In this document: one piece after another, positions 1 to 21,237 of the stretch
How positions within the stretch are numbered: position 1 is the stretch's first letter
Layout: each line of letters opens with the position of its first letter
DNA from: a virus
IMG/VR virus record: IMGVR_UViG_3300013014_000146
Coordinates: 1 to 22,042 of that record
Length of the DNA: 22,042 nucleotides
Direction: 5' to 3' (one strand)
Notes under the pieces: generated by a model
What the model was told of the DNA's origin: nothing
The model's input: the letters and a program-made list of their open reading frames with translations, nothing else
Databases searched by the model: none
Program-made: the position numbers and the translations under genes

Positions 1-3000
1 TCATAAAACCACTGATACACCCCACGCCAATAACCCTGATATATAGGTTCTTGATTTATTTTATTTCCACTTTGATAATAGTTAAATGTAAACTCATCGT
101 TTCTGTTATATAACTGTTTCTTATAATTAATTCTATTTTGCCCAATCCAATTCAAAAACATTTTACTATAAATTTCTAATATTTCACCATTGGTAAATTC
201 AGTTTCTCTAAAGAATCCAGGAATAATATCATACTGAGATATAGGAACACTAGTACTTAATTTCAAGTTATTGTAAACTCTAAGCTCAAATTCAAGTAAA
301 GCTTGGTCTCTAAAGTCTATAAGCACGCCTAATATGTCATCATATATGCCATATAACTTATTATATGAGCCATCATGGCCCTTAATAAAATATGTAGGTT
401 GTGAATAATCGGAATCTAATACAACTTCAGGAATAAATGCAGGATATAATCCCAATTTAGTAGGAGTATTTGGAACATAACTACCATATGTTTGATTGTA
501 CTCTTTAATTATAATTACATCACCATTTTGAAGAGGAGATGTAATTGTTAAAGAAGGTCCGGTAGTACTAATAGTATAATCTGTATTGGTAACCAATTGT
601 TTGGTTACAGTTACGTTAGATATTGTAGTAGCAACATATACTAATACACCTGAATAATTAGCGGTAGTGAAATTATATACTTGACTTAATGGATAAGTTG
701 GAGCTATTGCTGCTGTAGTATAGGTATAACTATTAATAATATACGGTGACTCTGATGGGATCATGTCACTCCAAAAGAAAGGTTGAGATTGAATCTTAAC
801 CCTATTAATTTGCTCTAATGCATCATCTAATATAGTAGATGGATTAAATCTTTGTGTATAATCTGTATTATTAATAGTATCTACTAACAGTGTTTTAAAC
901 TTAATATATTCTCTACTATTAAACATTAATGCATTGAATATATTATGATTTGGTTTTCTTAAAAATGCTCCAGGTAATACTAATGACGCACTATTCTGTA
1001 TAATTCTGTCGCCCCATGGTACTAAATTACCCAAGTCTCTGTAATTATTTGAACCAAATGCCTCACCTATAGTATTTGGATTATTATAGAATATGGTTTG
1101 ATATTGATTTTTTATATCACCTACGTTAGTAACTTCTAAATTAGTATTAAGTGGATTATTACTTAAATTGATAGGTATATTATAATATGCAGTAGTACTA
1201 ATCTGATCACTAAACAATAATATTTCTATGACGGTATCAGTTGATATAGTATTCAATATCTGTACCACTGTGGAATTGCTATTAATAGTGTATTGATATT
1301 CGGTACTATCCAATAAAATATTATTTGCTAATACTTTAATAACAGGCCAATTAGTAGAAGCGATAGAATTTACTGCTACATCGCATATAAAAATTGATTG
1401 AGGTTCTTCTACATAGTAGTCAAATTCAAATACTTGATATTGAATACTAGGTGATACCGCGGTTTGCCAACCTAATTCTCTAGTATAAAGACTTCTAGTG
1501 TCATAATTATAAACATAACCAGTATTAATATTCTGTGTTATAGGTTGAAAATTGCTTACATAATCAAAGGTATCAGTATTGATAGATACATCAAAACTAA
1601 TATCACCAATATTAGCTACCGTACTATATCTAATAGGGAAACCCAAAACTGAATCTTTTGTTCCTGTACCAATACCATATGCAAATAACTTGCTACCTAT
1701 GAAGGAGCTTCCAGAATATACTGTATTATCACCAAAACTAATTCCATTTTCGTCAAATACATCAAATAAAGGTGGTTGATTTACCGTAGACTTTTGCTGA
1801 GCCTGAAGCCAATCTACACCATCATACCAAACACTTTTTCCTGTATAATTATAACCACTAAGTACAACGGCTTGATCTCCAATTAAAATCTCTCCGTTTG
1901 GTGCTTCGCTTAAAGTAAGAACCGGTGTCGTGCCTGATAGAATAGAATATCTAGAAATATATATTTTATTTCTAACATCAGGATCGGTAGCCGCAGCAAA
2001 GACTACTCTAGCCTCATTAAATAGTGCATAGTTATTAACTGGTTGAGGGACAGCTATAAGAGAAGCAGTAGTTGTACCTGTAAAAAAACTATATGATATA
2101 GTATCCCAATACACTACCATAGTGGTTATTGTAGGTGTTCTCGAAACAGAAGATATTTGTGTGTCAGGTGGGAGTAAATTAGTAGAGTCAGTTATATATT
2201 GACCTATTTGAAATGACCCTGTTACATCATTAGTAGGAACTGTTATAACAGTGCTTTGTGGAGTCCAATAAAACTGAATTGTCCCGGTACCTGTGGAAAG
2301 ATTAAATACAGCTCCTCCCCTAGTTTCTGATATTGTAATTGTATTACTATTAACTATTTCTGAAATATAGTAATATTCACCCGCAATTATATTACCATAT
2401 ACCGGGCCTGAACTAACAGTAAACCTTACCAAATCATTAACTCTGAAGCCAAAGGTATTACCGCATGTAATTTGATTATTAGTACCATTAGTAGCGGTAG
2501 CAACATTTACACTAGTATATGCAGTTGCATTAATTGTAGCTGTATAATCGGTGTATACTTGAACATCGGGGTAATAATTTTCTTGACCCGACACCAATGA
2601 CAAAGGATCAGTAGTACGAAAATCTACAAAATCCAATGGCTCTTTACCTTCAGTACCTGAATTAAATAATCTTAAATTTGGATAAAATTCAATAATAGGT
2701 CTTTTAGCTTTATTAATCTGTGAAGCATACAATAATATTGTAGGATCATTATTATATTCTGCGGTCGCATTAATAACATCAATATGAAACCATCTATTAC
2801 TTCTAGACCAAGCGTTTTTGCTTAATGAGTTTCTAGCTATTGTAATATAATCTGGATTTGCAGGTATATACGGTTTACCTGACCAAGCACCTATGTCCCA
2901 TGGAGTAGAATCATAAGGTAAATACAATGTTGATGAAAATGATTCAGGTACTATAAGACTTGAAACAGGAATAAGTTCTATTGCTGTACCTACTCCCTCT

Positions 3001-4325
3001 ACATAAAAATCTTCAACAGAATATGCTTCGGGGACAACATTTCCTTGAAATTGAACTTTCAATCCATTGGTAAATTTAACACCATTACGAGAAGTATAAG
3101 TAGTTTTACCTAATATGTCAGTTACGACATCAATTGTATCAGTTGAATTATTTTCGATAAGTTTAATCACACCAACTTTATCACTTGAAGTACCATCTTG
3201 ATAATAAAGAGTATCTAACTCAGCACTTAAGTAAGGTATTAGTGTAATAATTGTTGATGTATTTCTAAAAAATTGTTTACCTAAATAATCAGTACCATAT
3301 TGAACATTAATTTTTTGATTAGTTGGGATACTGCTAGCAGGTGTAAGTTGCAACTGTGGATTAGAAGAAGACCCTATATAATTAATTGTGAAAAATTGTG
3401 CGCTTACTAATTGACCGTAAGCCATTTCATTTGGATCACCTGTATTATAAAACATAACAGTTAATCCATTTAGTGAAGTTATTCCATCAATATCATTTAA
3501 CAAGCTTAAATAACTTCCATCGACTTGTGAAAAAAGAAGTGTGCTTACTAAGTCAACCGTGTTGTTACCTGGCAAATTATACTGATTTTGTGCGTTTTTA
3601 GCAGGTACGGTAAATGTCACGACACCAGCAGTAGCACCATTATTAACAACACCTAGTACATCTCTAGTTTGCACATTTGGTTGAGTAATACTATAACCTG
3701 TGATTCCCGGTTCGCCTTGAATCCAAAATTCACTTGATTGATTTACAGTAAACGTATACGTACCACCTCGTAATAAGGTTAGAGTTGGATTACCTGATGA
3801 AGTGCCTGTAGGCTCAGTGGCAATTTCGTAAGAGGTTGGTCCATCAATCACATAATATTGCTCTGATGAATATGCGACACCAGATGTTATTACTACAGGT
3901 GGAAGACCCTCAGGTAACCAATAATACTGATGAAAATTAACGTTTGTATCTAAATTAGTAAACGAGTCCCAAGAATAAAATTCGCTATTAAAAAGTCGAT
4001 TATTATTGTTTATTAACCCACCTTCCAATTTAAGAGCATCTAATATGCCAGGATAGCTTATAAAATCCTGTGCAACATCTTGATCAGTTTTTCTAAAAAT
4101 AACACCTGGATCAAGTTGGTAATCTGTTCTAACTTTAGTTGGTTCAGTTACATAATAATCTTTAGCATTGATACCATAACCAACTCTAGTACCAATATAA
4201 CCCTGAATTCTTTCAACATCAGGCTGAGCAACTAATTGATCTAGCGTGGCTGCTAAGAATTGAGCATTGGTTGGGGTTTGAAATATCTCTGGGAGAAAAT
4301 CTAAGGTTCTTATTTTTGTGGCCAT
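1..4325 (-). CDS. Giant virion structural protein in the gp7 (baseplate wedge) position, C-terminus off the left edge
   Basis: The reading frame opens at ATG 4325-4323 (MATKIRTLDFLPEIFQT) and was still open at every place I translated it, including the left edge, where it reads IQGYWRGVYQWFY. This gives at least 1441 residues, against about 1030 for the whole of T4 gp7. The protein is rich in Asn, Thr, Tyr and Ile, and I see no signal peptide, membrane segment or catalytic motif. Its N-terminus (QGYIGTRVGYG, then DYYVTEPTKVRTDYQLDPG) and a later segment (IKGHDGSYNKLYGIYDDI) look like the very long structural proteins of marine T4-like phages. It starts 6 bases after the gp6 stop, matching the T4 order 53-5-6-7, and its ribosome binding site is weak, which suggests coupling to gp6. 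That it is a phage structural protein is strongly supported; equivalence to gp7 rests on gene order only. Confidence 0.82.
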   Translation of the reverse strand, partial: MATKIRTLDFLPEIFQTPTNAQFLAATLDQLVAQPDVERIQGYIGTRVGYGINAKDYYVTEPTKVRTDYQLDPGVIFRKTDQDVAQDFISYPGILDALKLEGGLINNNNRLFNSEFYSWDSFTNLDTNVNFHQYYWLPEGLPPVVITSGVAYSSEQYYVIDGPTSYEIATEPTGTSSGNPTLTLLRGGTYTFTVNQSSEFWIQGEPGITGYSITQPNVQTRDVLGVVNNGATAGVVTFTVPAKNAQNQYNLPGNNTVDLVSTLLFSQVDGSYLSLLNDIDGITSLNGLTVMFYNTGDPNEMAYGQLVSAQFFTINYIGSSSNPQLQLTPASSIPTNQKINVQYGTDYLGKQFFRNTSTIITLIPYLSAELDTLYYQDGTSSDKVGVIKLIENNSTDTIDVVTDILGKTTYTSRNGVKFTNGLKVQFQGNVVPEAYSVEDFYVEGVGTAIELIPVSSLIVPESFSSTLYLPYDSTPWDIGAWSGKPYIPANPDYITIARNSLSKNAWSRSNRWFHIDVINATAEYNNDPTILLYASQINKAKRPIIEFYPNLRLFNSGTEGKEPLDFVDFRTTDPLSLVSGQENYYPDVQVYTDYTATINATAYTSVNVATATNGTNNQITCGNTFGFRVNDLVRFTVSSGPVYGNIIAGEYYYISEIVNSNTITISETRGGAVFNLSTGTGTIQFYWTPQSTVITVPTNDVTGSFQIGQYITDSTNLLPPDTQISSVSRTPTITTMVVYWDTISYSFFTGTTTASLIAVPQPVNNYALFNEARVVFAAATDPDVRNKIYISRYSILSGTTPVLTLSEAPNGEILIGDQAVVLSGYNYTGKSVWYDGVDWLQAQQKSTVNQPPLFDVFDENGISFGDNTVYSGSSFIGSKLFAYGIGTGTKDSVLGFPIRYSTVANIGDISFDVSINTDTFDYVSNFQPITQNINTGYVYNYDTRSLYTRELGWQTAVSPSIQYQVFEFDYYVEEPQSIFICDVAVNSIASTNWPVIKVLANNILLDSTEYQYTINSNSTVVQILNTISTDTVIEILLFSDQISTTAYYNIPINLSNNPLNTNLEVTNVGDIKNQYQTIFYNNPNTIGEAFGSNNYRDLGNLVPWGDRIIQNSASLVLPGAFLRKPNHNIFNALMFNSREYIKFKTLLVDTINNTDYTQRFNPSTILDDALEQINRVKIQSQPFFWSDMIPSESPYIINSYTYTTAAIAPTYPLSQVYNFTTANYSGVLVYVATTISNVTVTKQLVTNTDYTISTTGPSLTITSPLQNGDVIIIKEYNQTYGSYVPNTPTKLGLYPAFIPEVVLDSDYSQPTYFIKGHDGSYNKLYGIYDDILGVLIDFRDQALLEFELRVYNNLKLSTSVPISQYDIIPGFFRETEFTNGEILEIYSKMFLNWIGQNRINYKKQLYNRNDEFTFNYYQSGNKINQEPIYQGYWRGVYQWFY

Positions 4326-7757: not shown

Positions 7758-8207
7758 CTACTGAATAGTGGCTCTATTAGTATTAGAGTCAAAAAATACG
7801 CTTAATACCAATGGATTATTAAAGGGAGCAATGGCTATTTCTAATTCTATTAAAATTCCAAGTTCTTGCGGAAAAGCTGCCACTGTGTTTAAAATTAATC
7901 TAGGATCTAAACTAGCAACTCTTCTTACTTCAGTTTCTAATTGAAACTGAACATCAGCCGTATTTGGTTCAAATACAAAAGACCATATGGTTGTACCATA
8001 TTCAGGCTGTCCTACTTTTTGCCCTTGTGTTATATTCAAGGCATTGATAAAATCTTGAACTACAAGCGGAACATCTACTAGTGTAAATTTTTTACCAGTG
8101 TTAACAGGTCTAACAATTCCACCTACACCCCCATCAGTGCCATTGACGGCATTAGTGGTTTTTGGTTGATTCGCTCCAATTGTACTGAATCCAATATATG
8201 ATGGCAT
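7758..8207 (-). CDS. gp25: Baseplate wedge protein, T4 gp25-like (GPW/gp25 family)
   Basis: This 149-residue protein is close in size to T4 gp25 (132 residues), the small wedge subunit that bridges gp6 to the tail sheath and helps start sheath contraction. A poorly conserved Gly/Asn-rich N-terminus (to about residue 38) precedes the family core: DVPLVVQDFINALNITQGQK, then PEYGTTIWSFVFEP around residues 66-80 and a final beta segment with LDPRLIL and ELEIAIAP. The PEYG and FEP stretches are typical of the family. ATG 8207 has a strong Shine-Dalgarno sequence (AAGGAGTGA, 6 bases upstream), which settles the start. It sits between gp5 and gp6, as in many T4-like phages, though T4 itself places gene 25 elsewhere. 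Confidence 0.9.
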   Translation of the reverse strand: MPSYIGFSTIGANQPKTTNAVNGTDGGVGGIVRPVNTGKKFTLVDVPLVVQDFINALNITQGQKVGQPEYGTTIWSFVFEPNTADVQFQLETEVRRVASLDPRLILNTVAAFPQELGILIELEIAIAPFNNPLVLSVFFDSNTNRATIQ

Positions 8208-8240: not shown

Positions 8241-8274
8241 TAAGTGCGGCAATTGCATCCAAAGTGCCGCCTTA
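8241..8274 (-). other. Intercistronic hairpin starting at the gp5 stop codon
   Basis: On the minus strand, TAAGGCGGCA (beginning with the gp5 stop TAA) pairs with TGCCGCACTTA, giving a 10-bp stem with one bulged A and a 13-base loop. It ends about 34 bases before the gp25 start and about 20 bases before its Shine-Dalgarno. No U-run follows on either strand, so it is not a standard intrinsic terminator; an mRNA processing or 3'-end protecting element is more likely. The spacer is otherwise AT-rich, so the GC-rich stem stands out. Confidence 0.55.
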
Positions 8275-11200
8275 CAGTCCTCTAATCCTATCACGTTCCC
8301 TATTACCGGTGGTTCCTTGCAACGCATACTGCTGTTCTCTCAAAGATAGTATTTTATTATTTAAAGTATTAACTTCTGCGAATGCAGACTTTGCAGACAA
8401 TTTGGCAAGATTTATACTTGGATCTCCTTGTGGCTTAGTATTTAATAAGTTAGCCCATTCAGCATTAGCAGCGTTAAATTTGATCTCAACTTTATCTCTC
8501 TCAATAATTAGATCATCTATTTGTTTTAAAATATCATTTAGTTTATTATTTTTTTCCTCTACTGCATTTAATGCAGAGGCGGTTTCTTCTGAAACAGTTC
8601 CTGAAAAATTTGGAGGAGGTGCACTGCCAATCAATGAAGTAGTTTGAGCAGTTATCTGTGCTCGGTCAGTAGTATTTGTACCTACTTGAGGAGTAGTTAC
8701 ATTCACTAAACCCGAACTTAATCCTGAAATAGAAGAATTTAATTTTGCAGCAGCATCCGCAGGCAACCCTGATTGTATCAAAGATGCCAAACCTGAAGAT
8801 TTTAATTTTTCTAGTCCGCTTGAAAGAGCCCCTGTAAGTGCTCCTGCTGCACCACCAAGTGCTCCACTAAGTGCTCCTGCTGCACCACCAAGTGCTCCAC
8901 TAAGTGCTCCTGCTGCACCACCAAGTGCACCACTAAGTGCTCCGGCTGCACTACCAAGTGCTCCTGTAAGTGCTCCTGCTGCACTACCAAGTACTCCTGT
9001 AAGTACTCCGGCTGCACTACCAAGTGATCTTGCTGTGCCACCAAGTGCCCCTGTAAGTGAATTTGCTGCACTTCCTATAGCATTTGATAATGAAATTCCG
9101 TTATTAACCGCAGTACTAGAACTATCTACTAGAGCCTTAATAGTTCCTGTACCCGGTATAGAATCAACGACACTGTTTGAGTAATCTGTAATAGATGCTA
9201 TGGCATTTTGACCACCTGGTATATTACTAATACCGCTTGCTACAGCCGAATCTACCCCACTAGTAATATTTGTTGATGAGGTTGTTCTAGCCAAAGTATT
9301 TGCTGCATTAGCAACAAGTGACCCTGCTGAATTTATAGCTGCATTCCCAGCGGTTTTTAAAGTAGTAAGGGCTCCGGCTGCCGAAGATAATAATGAATTA
9401 CCTGATCCTAATACTCCTCCTGCAACGCCAGAGAGTGCGGATCCAATATTACCTCCTAAACCACCACCTGCTATACTTGATGCTGACTCTCCTAAATTTT
9501 GTTTCAAAGCTGTTATAGCATCTAAAGTTCCGTTCTGTAACTCTGCGATTTTTGCAAGTTCAGCATTACCGGTCGGTTCAGCAGATGATGCTGCTTTTGC
9601 AGCTTCGTTAATTGCTGTTAAATTCTGCGGTACATTTGCCTTTAATTTTGGCAAAGCACCTTTAATTGCATTAAATGCTCCTGCTGCTATCCCTTTAGCT
9701 TGGTTGAGAACATCAGTAATGCCCCCTCCTATCTTACCTAAAGCGCCTGATATTGCACCAAATGCACCACTCGTAGAACCAAGCTTGGCTGCAAAATTAC
9801 CTGAATTGATAGTTGCAGTGATACTTGAAATTGCCCCCTGAGCACCACTAATTAAATTTTTACCTGCATTAACTAATCCTTGGGCACCGGCTCCCAAAGC
9901 GCCGGTAACATTGTTAGCAAGATTTTTAACCGCATTTATAGTTGATGCTACTCCGGCAGTAGAAGCAGACAATACCAATCCAGCGGCGGCCGCGCCTGAT
10001 TCAGTACCAGAAATAACCCCTGCTTGCGTTAACGCAGCGTTCGCTTGTTGTAAACCTGAAACTGCTATTTGAGCTTGTGTGGCTACATTTGATGCAACTG
10101 CTTGCAGATTTTCAGCACCTGCTTTACCAGTAAAAACGGCATTAGGCAATGCTTTAGCTAATGTTGCACCAGCATTCTGCGCTAAAGCCATTGACAATGC
10201 AGCAGAGCCTGGTTTAGTAGTACCATCATTTTGAAGTTGTTGCGGTGTTAGTCCTAGCGACCCAATTACAGGTATTGTACCCTGTGCTGTTCGCACCAAC
10301 CCTCCACCTGCAGCAGCAGCCGTAGCAGCAGCACCACTGGCCACATTGGTAGATATAGCTCCTATTAAAGCTTTAGTTTCACCAGTTCCAATAGCTGGAC
10401 TAACAGGAGCTGTTGTCGGTACGGTAGCAGCCGCAGCAGCACTAACAGGTACACTAGGATTCTCACTGGCCATTGCATTAATCTCACTAGTACCGGAGCT
10501 AGGTTCGGATGGAAGTTGAGCATCTGCATTTAATGTAGTAGGTACATTAACCCCTTGACCTGCACTAGCCCACGGTGCGTGAGCAGGAGCCCTAGATACT
10601 ATACTTATTAATTTGCCTGGAGCTGCTAAAAAGCCTTTTTCTTTGTCATACAATGTATCGGTATGTGCCACATTAGTAGGAAGAGGAACATCTTTTGGAA
10701 TTACACCGGTTTGACCTGTATTTAAATTTATAGTCGATCCATTAATGTATGTAACCGCACTGCTAGCAAATGAAGCTACCCCACTAGCAGCCATACTCAT
10801 AGCTCCGCCAATTTTATGTGTGAATTTACCTATAGTTTGTAATATAGAATCGCCACCAACTCTTAGACTATAATCTTTTTCTGAATTTATAGTGATAGAA
10901 TCAGCTTGAATGTTTAGTTTTTTAGCAGCATTTATATTAACGTCATTGTCTGCATGTAAATTTAAATCACCCTGTGTTCTAATGTTAACACTGTTAGTAG
11001 CATACATATCAATGGTACCTTCTTTACCTAATTCAATGTAGCTTTGTCCATTTGAGTGCAAAATCATTAAAGTTTGACCATTATCACTCATCAAAATTTG
11101 ATGTCCCAATGCGGTTCTGATCCGAATAAGCTGATCATTTCCAACCCAATCTCCATCATCCATAACTATAGAATGACCACCTCTTCTACCTACAACTTTT

Positions 11201-11952
11201 ACATCGGGCTTGTCAGCCAACGCTGCCTGAACTACAGATTCATCAGTATAATTACCTTCATATATAGGTCTACCCGGAGTACTTACCCCCCACCCAACTC
11301 TACTAGGTGATTCACGTTGGGCACTAGAACTAATAGGTCCTCTAATCGGGTCTCTAATAATACCTTGCTGATTCATAATCGCAGCAACATATGAATGCAC
11401 TGGCTTTGGCATATTTACATAATCTGCGTCATTTGATTTGGGATTATTAGGATTAAGGTTAGTTACAGGTAATCTAGTAGCACCTCCATAGCTAGATGCT
11501 TCAGAATCACTTAAAACTATATTTGTTGAAGCACCAATAGCCGGAATCATTTGCAAAGCATCTGGATTAGGAACACATCCTATATAATATCCAAAATTGG
11601 GGTCGCCATTTACAAACATACAAATGACTACGGTTCCTATATCAGGAGGACTTTGCCACGCTCCATATGAATGAGGATTTCTGTCATATGTACCATAATC
11701 TTCAGGCTTAGCTCCACCTCGAGGTGCAGTATAACCATAAAAGTTAGGAAGTTGTCCAACAGTTATCCAACTATCAGCATCATTTTGGTCTTCCCCTCCC
11801 AAATCAAGTAAATATACTTGAATTCTACCCATTCTAACGGGGTCTACATTGTCTTTAACCACACCAAAAACAGGGACTGATCTTATATTAGCATTACCCG
11901 CATCAGGTTTGCTCGACTTTATAGGCCCTCTTGGCTTAAATCTATCAAACAT
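8272..11952 (-). CDS. gp5: Baseplate central spike protein, T4 gp5-like, with long Ala/Gly-rich repeat tail
   Basis: This 1226-residue protein is the likely membrane-piercing spike. Residues ~27-140 look like the gp5/VgrG OB-fold domain (PVFGVVKDNVDPVRMGRIQV, then PPDIGTVVICMFVNGDPNFG). Residues ~250-420 resemble the needle-like beta-helix of gp5/VgrG, with short repeating strands such as IDMYATNSVNIRT, DLNLHADNDVNIN and KLNIQADSITINS. A conserved-looking segment (SRAPAHAPWASAGQG) follows near residue 455. I see no lysozyme domain, unlike T4 gp5. Residues ~490-1110 are strongly Ala/Gly/Ser/Leu-rich, including an 11-residue tandem array, and residues ~1120-1170 look like a coiled coil (NALN, EEKNNKLNDILKQIDDLI). 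ATG 11952 has GGAG 11 bases upstream. The tail could be a helical, membrane-active or scaffolding region, which is inference. T4 gp5 is about 575 residues. Confidence 0.87.
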   Translation of the reverse strand: MFDRFKPRGPIKSSKPDAGNANIRSVPVFGVVKDNVDPVRMGRIQVYLLDLGGEDQNDADSWITVGQLPNFYGYTAPRGGAKPEDYGTYDRNPHSYGAWQSPPDIGTVVICMFVNGDPNFGYYIGCVPNPDALQMIPAIGASTNIVLSDSEASSYGGATRLPVTNLNPNNPKSNDADYVNMPKPVHSYVAAIMNQQGIIRDPIRGPISSSAQRESPSRVGWGVSTPGRPIYEGNYTDESVVQAALADKPDVKVVGRRGGHSIVMDDGDWVGNDQLIRIRTALGHQILMSDNGQTLMILHSNGQSYIELGKEGTIDMYATNSVNIRTQGDLNLHADNDVNINAAKKLNIQADSITINSEKDYSLRVGGDSILQTIGKFTHKIGGAMSMAASGVASFASSAVTYINGSTINLNTGQTGVIPKDVPLPTNVAHTDTLYDKEKGFLAAPGKLISIVSRAPAHAPWASAGQGVNVPTTLNADAQLPSEPSSGTSEINAMASENPSVPVSAAAAATVPTTAPVSPAIGTGETKALIGAISTNVASGAAATAAAAGGGLVRTAQGTIPVIGSLGLTPQQLQNDGTTKPGSAALSMALAQNAGATLAKALPNAVFTGKAGAENLQAVASNVATQAQIAVSGLQQANAALTQAGVISGTESGAAAAGLVLSASTAGVASTINAVKNLANNVTGALGAGAQGLVNAGKNLISGAQGAISSITATINSGNFAAKLGSTSGAFGAISGALGKIGGGITDVLNQAKGIAAGAFNAIKGALPKLKANVPQNLTAINEAAKAASSAEPTGNAELAKIAELQNGTLDAITALKQNLGESASSIAGGGLGGNIGSALSGVAGGVLGSGNSLLSSAAGALTTLKTAGNAAINSAGSLVANAANTLARTTSSTNITSGVDSAVASGISNIPGGQNAIASITDYSNSVVDSIPGTGTIKALVDSSSTAVNNGISLSNAIGSAANSLTGALGGTARSLGSAAGVLTGVLGSAAGALTGALGSAAGALSGALGGAAGALSGALGGAAGALSGALGGAAGALTGALSSGLEKLKSSGLASLIQSGLPADAAAKLNSSISGLSSGLVNVTTPQVGTNTTDRAQITAQTTSLIGSAPPPNFSGTVSEETASALNAVEEKNNKLNDILKQIDDLIIERDKVEIKFNAANAEWANLLNTKPQGDPSINLAKLSAKSAFAEVNTLNNKILSLREQQYALQGTTGNRERDRIRGL
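8836..9055 (-). repeat. 33-bp tandem repeat array within gp5 (11-residue unit)
   Basis: Six full units and a degenerate seventh of a 33-base repeat lie head to tail. The plus-strand units begin at 8836, 8869, 8902, 8935, 8968 and 9001, each opening with AAGTG or AAGTA. The protein unit is GALGGAAGALS with variants GSAAG and ALT, at residues ~967-1039. The units nearest the protein C-terminus are the most alike and the N-terminal ones more diverged, so the array may be growing or shrinking at its 3' end. Gly and Ala fall every four residues, a glycine-zipper-like pattern that favours close packing of helices. Confidence 0.93.
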
Positions 11953-14521: not shown

Positions 14522-14833
14522 TTAAAGTCCTAATACTTGTTTCAACAATTCTAATTTAGGTATATAAATGCTTAATCCAGCCACAAAATCAAAATAAGGA
14601 TCCTTTAATCTATTTGGATTTCTTTGTGCAAAAACCCACCATAATCTAGAATCGCCGTATAGGTCATATGCTAACATATCAGGTCTATATTGGTAAACTG
14701 TACTAATTTCAAAATATATATCACTAGGAACCATTGGAATTGGAATATTAATCATAATATCCAAATAACTATTATTAACAATGTCCGTAACATTGTAAGG
14801 ACTAGTTGCAGGGTATAAACTATTGACAGCCAT
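14522..14833 (-). CDS. gp53: Baseplate wedge protein, T4 gp53-like
   Basis: This 103-residue protein matches the core of T4 gp53, the wedge subunit that joins adjacent wedges around the baseplate hub. The central segment (IYFEISTVYQYRPDMLAYDL, then LWWVFAQRNPNRLKDP and a final LSIYIPKLELLKQ) is typical: a short LysM-like fold with a Leu-Trp-Trp turn. T4 gp53 is longer (196 residues); only this part is present. I chose ATG 14833, which overlaps the stop of the upstream gene (TAATG), over TTG 14839, which adds two residues without a better ribosome binding site. The overlap implies translational coupling. Placed next to gp5/gp25/gp6, the assignment is firm. Confidence 0.85.
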   Translation of the reverse strand: MAVNSLYPATSPYNVTDIVNNSYLDIMINIPIPMVPSDIYFEISTVYQYRPDMLAYDLYGDSRLWWVFAQRNPNRLKDPYFDFVAGLSIYIPKLELLKQVLGL

Positions 14834-16536
14834 TACCAAATACCCACAGTTGAATTTTGTTTACCTTGCAATAATTTGCCAGTCGCATAATCTTTTAAAC
14901 TAAACCTATTACTAATATCATTTCGTGTTACAATTGGTACAGCGGTTATAGCTATATTCATTTTTGTAGGTACATATGTTGGTGTTCTTGATGAAGCGGA
15001 TGGTGTTTGTGTTGTAGTTTGTTGTCCAAAAACTGGTTCAGGTGTTACTCCACCCGGGCCGGCAGGACTTGAACTTGTAGATAATCTACTAGCACTTACC
15101 GCATTCGTATTGTTTGGGACTTGTGCTTCTGCTTTACTTACACCGGCGATAGTTGTTACAGTAGATGATGATCTTATATAATCTACATCAGTGGGCAAGT
15201 TATAAGAAAAATTAGTAATAACTAATGGATGAGTGTCAAATTGAAACGACCCCAAACCTGACAAGAAACACAAAGGAGGAGGTGTTCCAATTTTAGGAAT
15301 TGAATCTTGACCATAAAACATTTTAGTGACTGATCTAAAGAAATGTATAACCGCAAGTAAATAATTTGCCTCGGAAGTATCTTGTGCAGTAAAATCACAC
15401 GATAGTGTAATACTATCTACTGAACTATTCTTGTATTGATGTATTTTATAGTTACTATGGGTTAAATCATAATTATCATAATGTGCGCTATACTGAATTT
15501 GTATGCTTGGAGTATACGGAAATATTACTCCGTTGGTGGCTTGTAATGGTTGTAATATGCCCGGAGGATTAGCTTTATATAGATATGTTGCATTGGGGGC
15601 CAAACTTAACCTAACTCGCCAATCTTCTTTAATATTAAAATTGGCTTGACTTTGAGCAGTAGATTGAGATTGAGCATTAGTTTTAGCTCCTTGTAACCCT
15701 TTACTAGACCCGGTAGGACCATCAGGAAAATAAGTATCTCCTGTTTCAGGATTAGTAAGTACACCTTCTGCTACTGTACCATCTTCGGCTCGTACTGGTA
15801 AACCTGAAGTATTAATCGCTATCTTTTCCTGCAATGCTACAGCTTCATCTACACCTTCAAATTCATTTGGAAACGTGTCCCCGGTTTTCTGTGGTTCAAC
15901 TACTTCATAAAATGGTTCTGATGCCATTCCAGCAATATTTGTATCAATCGTTGTAACATTAGGGGGCAAGATCGGGGAAGTTTGTGCCTCAGGTGCGGGT
16001 ACATCAGTACCAGGAGCACGTTCACGTATTTCCTGATCTGTAAGTGGGGGGAGATTAGTTTCTTCTCTTGGTACATCTCGTGGTGTAGTAGATATTGGTA
16101 CGGGTTCTGGGTTGAGATTAGCAGGTACTCCAGGATCATTATTACTATTAGTTGGTATTGCGGCTGATTCTTGTGGGACCGGGGTATCTGTTGCCGCAGC
16201 GGCTGCTTGTGCTTTTTGTGCTTGGTTATTTACATCTCCCCAAGATGAGTTTAATACATTACCTATTCCTAGTGTGCTAACAGGACTGCCACCATTAGCG
16301 GCTGTTAATTGCGATCGGATATTATTTATATTTTTTACAGATTGGGGGTTTTCATCCTGTGGTAAAGTTAATGTGGCTGTTAGTCCAGCTGGAGTAGTAA
16401 CCGTATACGTGGTTTTACCGGTAACTGTATCTAGCGTTGCATTTACAACTGTGCTAGTTATAGCGGTATCTGCTGTTACCCGTGTTCCCCCGAGAATGTC
16501 TCTTGAGGTAGCAACCGTTACTGTAAAATTAGCCAT
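14833..16536 (-). CDS. Tail tube / baseplate protein, gp48/gp54-like (tentative), with long disordered linkers
   Basis: This 567-residue protein opens the baseplate operon. Residues 1-~60 look like a small beta-rich domain. Residues ~60-295 are Pro/Thr/Gln/Asn-rich and probably disordered. A folded region starts at ~298 (NIKEDWRVRLSLAP) and includes IFPYTPSIQIQYSAHYDNYD, LTHSNYKIHQY, DFTAQDTSEANYLLAVIHFF and SVTKMFYGQ, a pattern I associate with tube-initiator proteins of marine T4-like phages. A Ser/Pro/Thr-rich insertion (~470-525) separates strand-like TNFSYNLPTDVDYIR from the terminal NIAITAVPIVTRNDISNRFS. I chose ATG 16536: AGGATAGGAA lies 5 bases upstream and a late octamer lies just above it, whereas TTG 16569 lies upstream of that octamer. 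Tube-like function is inferred from motif style and position. Confidence 0.72.
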   Translation of the reverse strand: MANFTVTVATSRDILGGTRVTADTAITSTVVNATLDTVTGKTTYTVTTPAGLTATLTLPQDENPQSVKNINNIRSQLTAANGGSPVSTLGIGNVLNSSWGDVNNQAQKAQAAAAATDTPVPQESAAIPTNSNNDPGVPANLNPEPVPISTTPRDVPREETNLPPLTDQEIRERAPGTDVPAPEAQTSPILPPNVTTIDTNIAGMASEPFYEVVEPQKTGDTFPNEFEGVDEAVALQEKIAINTSGLPVRAEDGTVAEGVLTNPETGDTYFPDGPTGSSKGLQGAKTNAQSQSTAQSQANFNIKEDWRVRLSLAPNATYLYKANPPGILQPLQATNGVIFPYTPSIQIQYSAHYDNYDLTHSNYKIHQYKNSSVDSITLSCDFTAQDTSEANYLLAVIHFFRSVTKMFYGQDSIPKIGTPPPLCFLSGLGSFQFDTHPLVITNFSYNLPTDVDYIRSSSTVTTIAGVSKAEAQVPNNTNAVSASRLSTSSSPAGPGGVTPEPVFGQQTTTQTPSASSRTPTYVPTKMNIAITAVPIVTRNDISNRFSLKDYATGKLLQGKQNSTVGIW

Positions 16537-20481: not shown

Positions 20482-21237
20482 ATGACTATTTATAACGAAA
20501 CCACACCCTATATCTATAAATGGACTCATATACCAACCGGCAAATGGTATATAGGTTCTAAGATTCGCAAGGGATGGAACCCAACAAGACATGAAGAATA
20601 CATTTGTTCAAGCAAAGAAGTAAAGCCATTGGTTTTAGAAAATCGCAATGAATGGGTATATGAAATACTATACATTGGAGAAGCTAATTATATTGCTGAT
20701 TTAGAAAACTCAATTCTTACCTCTCTTAATGCCAAAGATGATCCATTGAGTTTTAATCAACATAACGGAGATGGATTATACAATAGATACGGGGTAAAGG
20801 AAAATGCAACTACTAGGCGAAAAAAGAGTGAAGCTAGGATCGGTAATAAAAATCCTATGTACGGTAAAACTGGCGAAAAATCACCTCATTACGGGAAAAA
20901 ATATGATGATAGTAGAAAGCAGAAACAAAGTTCTAGTTTGAAGGAATACGCAAAAAATAGACCTACCTCTCATAACAAAAACATAAGTAAATCTCTTAAG
21001 GGAAACCCGAAATTGTCTGAGAGATTACGAGGTGCGAATAATCCAATGTACGGGATTCCTGCATCAGATTACAATAAAGAAATGACCAAATTAAAAAACT
21101 CGGGCGATAATAATCCAATGAAGAAACCCGAACATCAACGAACGTGTGAACATTGTAGTAAGACAGTGGCAAAAAATCATTATACAATGTTTCATGGTGA
21201 TAAATGTAAATTTTTCATAGCCCCCAATAAACACTAA
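20482..21237 (+). CDS. Free-standing GIY-YIG homing endonuclease with NUMOD3-like repeats
   Basis: This 251-residue protein carries a GIY-YIG nuclease domain at residues ~8-98: YIYKWTHIPTGKWYIGSK (the GIY and YIG motifs are YIY 10-12 and YIG 23-25), R29, E75 in the ADLENSIL helix and N92 in FNQHNGDG. Their spacing parallels Y6, Y17, R27, E75 and N90 of I-TevI. DNA-contacting NUMOD3-like motifs follow: NKNPMYGK (122-129) with SPHYGKK, NNPMYG (186-191) and NNPMKK (210-215). The C-terminus has a probable zinc finger, C-x2-C-x7-H-x4-H-x3-C (222-242). It has a strong ribosome binding site (AAGGAG, 7 bases from ATG). It sits between two intact genes, so it is free-standing rather than intron-borne; its target site is probably in the homologous region of phages lacking it. 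Confidence 0.9.
   Translation: MTIYNETTPYIYKWTHIPTGKWYIGSKIRKGWNPTRHEEYICSSKEVKPLVLENRNEWVYEILYIGEANYIADLENSILTSLNAKDDPLSFNQHNGDGLYNRYGVKENATTRRKKSEARIGNKNPMYGKTGEKSPHYGKKYDDSRKQKQSSSLKEYAKNRPTSHNKNISKSLKGNPKLSERLRGANNPMYGIPASDYNKEMTKLKNSGDNNPMKKPEHQRTCEHCSKTVAKNHYTMFHGDKCKFFIAPNKH

Follow-up and report, generated by a model that had tools for sequence, protein, structure and literature searches.

The window, by which we mean the whole stretch of DNA analysed, is an IMG/VR virus record 22,042 bases long. Its open reading frame (ORF) at positions 8272-11952 on the minus strand (1226 aa, ATG start) codes for the central spike of an uncultured, T4-like jumbo phage with a contractile tail. In the reading that we favour, at a probability of roughly 60%, this spike carries a pseudo-lysozyme domain (T1) and a helical adaptor tail, and the wall is opened by a hydrolase of the tape-measure protein; the role of the tail is the part that we infer. 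In the usual picture, the spike with which a contractile phage pierces the wall brings its own lysozyme. Here, a spike-borne lysozyme domain appears to be kept but disarmed across a wide environmental clade, with differing wall-cutting enzymes on the tape measure, which makes testable both the need for spike lysozyme catalysis in infection and the retention of a dead enzyme as a docking or structural part. The analysis was computational throughout and dealt with the domain architecture and how far it is conserved, with the relation of T1 to active-type tail lysozymes, with the loss of its catalytic Glu and with the active-looking tape-measure hydrolases of relatives.

The identity of the spike is indicated by its gene context and its domains. 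Its neighbours are homologues of gp6, gp25 (baseplate wedge protein, 7758..8207, minus strand; PF04965, 1.4e-6) and gp53 (baseplate wedge protein, 14522..14839, minus strand; PF11246, 4e-6; phrog_7145, 3.9e-25), and on the opposite side lie divergent gp55-, gp47- and gp46-like genes, named from the order and annotation in cultured relatives. This gene order recurs, whole or in large part, in PA5oct, Atu_ph07, PBECO4, XaC1 and Phosso, which marks the ORF as the gp5 spike gene of a relative of T4-like jumbo phages. The head of the protein (aa 1-468) matches 60 cultured phage records, with 27-35% identity among the matches listed. An earlier note on this DNA had proposed a gp5-type spike without a lysozyme between the OB fold and the beta-helix, and both statements are borne out, the first by the OB fold, the beta-helix and the gp25/gp6/gp53 neighbours, the second by the colinear head and predicted coil described below. 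A search of genome contigs for a host found no relatives. Two other ORFs may be mentioned: positions 1-4325 (minus strand) hold the beginning of a structural gene of very large size, which lies downstream of gp6 in the same way in PA5oct and L004, and an ORF adjoining gp46 (20482-21237) resembles a GIY-YIG homing endonuclease by eye only.

The head comprises an OB-fold domain (aa 23-128; 11569..11886, minus strand; PF04717 at E=9.4e-5, just under the cut-off, and VIA matches to phage/CIS spikes with a model range from aa 19), a connecting region (aa 129-252; 11197..11568, minus strand) and a triple-stranded beta-helix shaft (aa 253-430; 10663..11196, minus strand; profile matches to VgrG, eCIS and T4 gp5 spikes, and Foldseek). 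The head closes with a conserved spike-end motif found in alignments (aa 428-468, ...SRAPAHAPW...; 10549..10671, minus strand), at which the PA5oct and SCTP-2 proteins end. The connecting region takes the place of the lysozyme in T4 gp5 (1k28), with which the spike shares the OB fold, the triple beta-helix and the gp25/gp6/gp53 context, but T4 gp5 has an active lysozyme between OB fold and helix and is without the long C-terminal extension. Head alignment with PA5oct, SCTP-2 and other jumbo-phage gp5s is colinear from end to end, with no lysozyme-size insertion between OB fold and beta-helix, and residues 129-219 are mostly coil in the AF2 predictions (monomer only), most of them below pLDDT 50. 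Alignment and AF2 together rule out a lysozyme fold hidden at aa 140-250, which the earlier note had entertained; a lysozyme-family domain does occur in the protein, at aa ~523-688. It should be noted that the central lysozyme is also absent from the jumbo relatives, and hence its presence is not required of a gp5-type spike in this sub-clade.

Beyond the spike end, the C-terminal extension (aa 469-1226) is rich in Ala and Gly, as the earlier note had described (20% Ala and 13% Gly by our count), and at 758 residues is longer than the ~600 given there. Four conserved modules were delimited: T1 (aa 523-688; 9889..10386, minus strand), the helical T2 (aa 718-782, ...QAKG...VPQNLT; 9607..9801, minus strand), T3 (aa 900-936, ...IPGG...; 9145..9255, minus strand), which falls below the HMM threshold in the window and is aligned in A5, and T4 (aa 1060-1129, ...P.V..NTTDR..IT.Q...; 8566..8775, minus strand). 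The terminal coiled coil foreseen earlier is present as a C-terminal helical hairpin (aa 1122-1211; 8320..8589, minus strand), with AF2 pLDDT mostly 94-97 and VIA matches to coiled-coil hairpins. The spike tail evolves under purifying selection, with dN/dS of ~0.2-0.4 in the tail modules vs 0.10-0.13 in the head. A Pfam scan found no family in the tail, Pfam and PHROG scans together gave nothing consistent, tblastn against the cultured phage collection gave no match, and PDB sequence searches returned nothing useful. A fold search with the tail model matched mostly common helical hairpins; T1, T2 and T4 were not found in it, though this does not make their folds new ones. No fold could be recognised for T2-T4. 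The assignment of T1 thus gives an identity to one stretch of an Ala/Gly-rich region that otherwise lacks annotation.

Profile comparison makes T1 a homologue of the catalytic tail lysozyme found in Pootjesviridae gp5. The domain is folded at pLDDT 93-98 over aa ~497-677 (AF2), and its profile aligned with that of Pootjesviridae-type tail lysozymes bearing the ESSG motif (hhalign Prob 96, E=4.7e-9, score 59.9), against scores of at most 12.9 for 20 column shuffles and 14.9 for the reversed profile; the T2-T4 profile, compared with the same lysozymes as a further control, gave E=0.92. The link to lysozymes rests mainly on this one profile-profile comparison. Weak leads in the same direction are a match of the T1 consensus to phrog_27932 (baseplate hub and tail lysozyme, E=0.0053) and one of the tail model to the Atu_ph04 hub and tail lysozyme in BFVD (prob 1.00, E=0.061). 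A third lead, the similarity of T1 to the phi6 lysin 4dqj (Z 7.3 over 123 residues), has a score within the background range, and Foldseek found no match of the tail model in the PDB with E <0.001. In Atu_ph04 and other Pootjesviridae, gp5 contains a T1 homologue, annotated as tail lysozyme, but there the lysozyme precedes the beta-helix and keeps the catalytic Glu.

In the window, V537 (codon 10342..10344, minus strand) aligns with the catalytic Glu of the active homologues, which is assigned from the ESSG motif and not from an assay. Across 82 unique T1 sequences this column holds Ala (56), Thr (12), Val (7) and Ser (2), and none of the 77 residues is Glu; since the catalytic Glu is absent from all family members examined, T1 is a pseudo-lysozyme, that is, a lysozyme-family domain without its catalytic residue and predicted to be non-catalytic. 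Five members do have a Glu two positions off the aligned site, and in a few of the sequences a residual active site could therefore be masked by a shift in register. In L118, the deepest-branching environmental relative, the spike is 535 aa long and T1 has an ORF of its own, of 691 aa, behind it. This ORF is more canonical in sequence, matches both lysozymes (E=1.1e-9) and T1 (E=2e-6), is also without the aligned Glu, and bridges the lysozymes and the T1 family. A literature search with limited terms found no description of an inactive spike lysozyme of this kind. We regard it as unlikely that T1 has stayed enzymatic, or binds peptidoglycan specifically, by way of some other residue. Its core is strongly conserved, including K580, F607, Q626 and E651, as that explanation would have it; however, T1 does not conserve the Glu, Tyr-Gln and His that its active-type homologues share, and E651 aligns outside the catalytic ESSG motif.

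The extension is not peculiar to the window; of the close environmental relatives examined, nearly all have it. Searching with the tail gave 25 viral loci, and searching with the head gave at least 595 relatives, of which the best 80 were kept; nearly all of these 80 have T1-T4 after the head. Among the 79 distinct heads in these best 80 of at least 595, 61 are fused to the extension, 10 are split and 8 are head-only by HMM, 7 of the last from cultured phages. Split genes raise the possibility that the 1226-aa protein is a precursor from which spike and tail units are separated by cleavage in the course of assembly, in the manner of T4 gp5. The split state, in which the chain is cut into adjacent genes at module borders, requires at least six independent changes on the tree, and covalent linkage would then be dispensable; nevertheless, no protease site was identified and fused forms are the great majority, which leaves such processing unlikely. 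Some split ORFs could be assembly frameshifts, but at the junctions the stop and start codons mostly overlap or are near neighbours, and a GGAGG-like site within the terminal Gly codons often precedes the start. In the fused gene of the window, GGTGGAGGG stands directly before TTG GTG (10294-10299; aa 552-553), a site near the separate-gene start of L007 and L092 and a possible relic. The spacing is too short to claim an internal restart at aa 552/553. In L025, L030/L033, L090 and L106 the C-terminus of the second ORF looks Hint-like (GGGGGCV...LHHN), by eye and pattern only.

Among the cultured jumbo relatives, some spikes end at the tip and the others bear hydrolases there. The gp5s of PA5oct and SCTP-2 share the homologous head and the spike-end motif with the window, but end at the motif, without tail or lysozyme. 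RaK2/121Q-type gp5s (RaK2 gp078, CBB_240) likewise have a homologous head, the same gene order and no central lysozyme, but carry a C-terminal GH24-type lysozyme in place of T1-T4; such a C-terminal spike lysozyme was already described for RaK2 and CBB (PMC3622015, PMC5259590). The gp5s of Vibrio 2.275.O and PBECO4 also end in a GH24 domain (Pfam), and that of Atu_ph07 in a trypsin-like peptidase domain (PF13365, 6.1e-17). The end of Phosso gp5, which a long poly-Gly linker precedes, looks similar. Evolved VgrGs of the T6SS resemble this arrangement in their working, with a domain added after the beta-helix and separate PAAR proteins in related genomes, but the spike of the window has no recognised effector domain after the beta-helix and is not a member of that group. 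Separate PAAR genes are present in 4/8 clade contigs, which suggests that the beta-helix tip may be capped despite the extension.

The earlier note had also suggested that the tail inserts in or crosses membranes. Such a tail would act on the envelope after puncture like glycine-zipper effectors, among them the T6SS effector Tde1, which is reported to require its glycine zipper for translocation (PMC10240207), and it does lie beyond the beta-helix, where the envelope would be met. The glycine-zipper-like pattern reported earlier is real, with 28 GxxxG motifs in the tail vs 13.8 expected, and the excess is significant in the repeat region; it is not tail-wide, however, but comes from one 66-residue tandem repeat of the 11-aa unit GALGGAAGALS (aa 978-1043; 8824..9021, minus strand; a 33-bp tandem repeat at 8835-9026), without which 13 motifs remain vs 9.5 expected (p=0.14). 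No 19-residue stretch of the window tail reaches transmembrane hydrophobicity (maximum Kyte-Doolittle 1.50), and no segment in the window or 12 relatives has a favourable insertion energy. With no membrane helices predicted and the GxxxG signal confined to one repeat, the membrane idea is not supported; T1 is, moreover, a soluble-type domain and the tail can be encoded as separate polypeptides. We therefore consider membrane activity quite unlikely.

In related contigs, the muralytic activity missing from the spike would appear to sit on the tape-measure protein, in the form of swappable, active-looking hydrolases recognised from their sequences. A tape-measure-like protein adjoining the portal gene has homologues in 15/23 clade contigs, several of which match tape-measure PHROGs. 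The hydrolases are SLT-type (L130), GH24 (L120), M23 and SLT (L153) and VanY (L150, a near relative). In L004 the C-terminus of the portal-adjoining protein matches a transglycosylase family, and no PF00959 lysozyme was found in its 333-kb contig. PA5oct gp335, used as a tape-measure query, had no match in the clade and was uninformative. In L041, a near relative of the window, the tape-measure-like gene (VanY) lies ~2.3 kb from gp46, and by this gene order the tape-measure gene of the window phage would lie just past the right edge. That the extension is itself a tape measure, or a protein of the tube lumen, joined to the spike by fusion, the earlier idea of a tail acting inside the tail tube, is very unlikely: its composition is Ala-rich and helical, and the tail of L002 matches the tape-measure family phrog_58 (8.4e-14) where shuffles do not, but the tails of the window, L003 and L004 do not match it, only 1/12 tails does so weakly, the clade has a tape-measure-like protein of its own, and the tail comes after the beta-helix, at the end distal to the tube.

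Our preferred reading, a disarmed spike with an adaptor tail and a hydrolase on the tape measure, can be put together as follows. The OB fold and triple beta-helix would form the puncturing shaft, beyond which each chain would present the dead lysozyme T1, the Ala/Gly-rich helices of T2-T4 and the helical hairpin end. At the spike tip, T1 and the helical tail may serve as a non-enzymatic structural or wall-docking adaptor, and after contraction the tape-measure hydrolase would open the wall, an arrangement that the window phage presumably shares. Whether this large clade of uncultured jumbo phages made a conserved tip module without catalysis out of its spike lysozyme and moved interchangeable hydrolases to the tape measure, so that the cut in the wall is made from inside the tube and not by the spike, we hold to be evenly balanced.

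Tape-measure proteins with peptidoglycan hydrolase motifs are known, for example in mycobacteriophage TM4 (PMC1796659). The tape measures described here are alike in bearing a muralytic domain, but belong to T4-like jumbo phages of a clade in which a dead lysozyme has stayed on the spike. In L153 (1391-9355), two tape-measure-like genes stand in tandem, one with an M23 domain and the other with an SLT domain.
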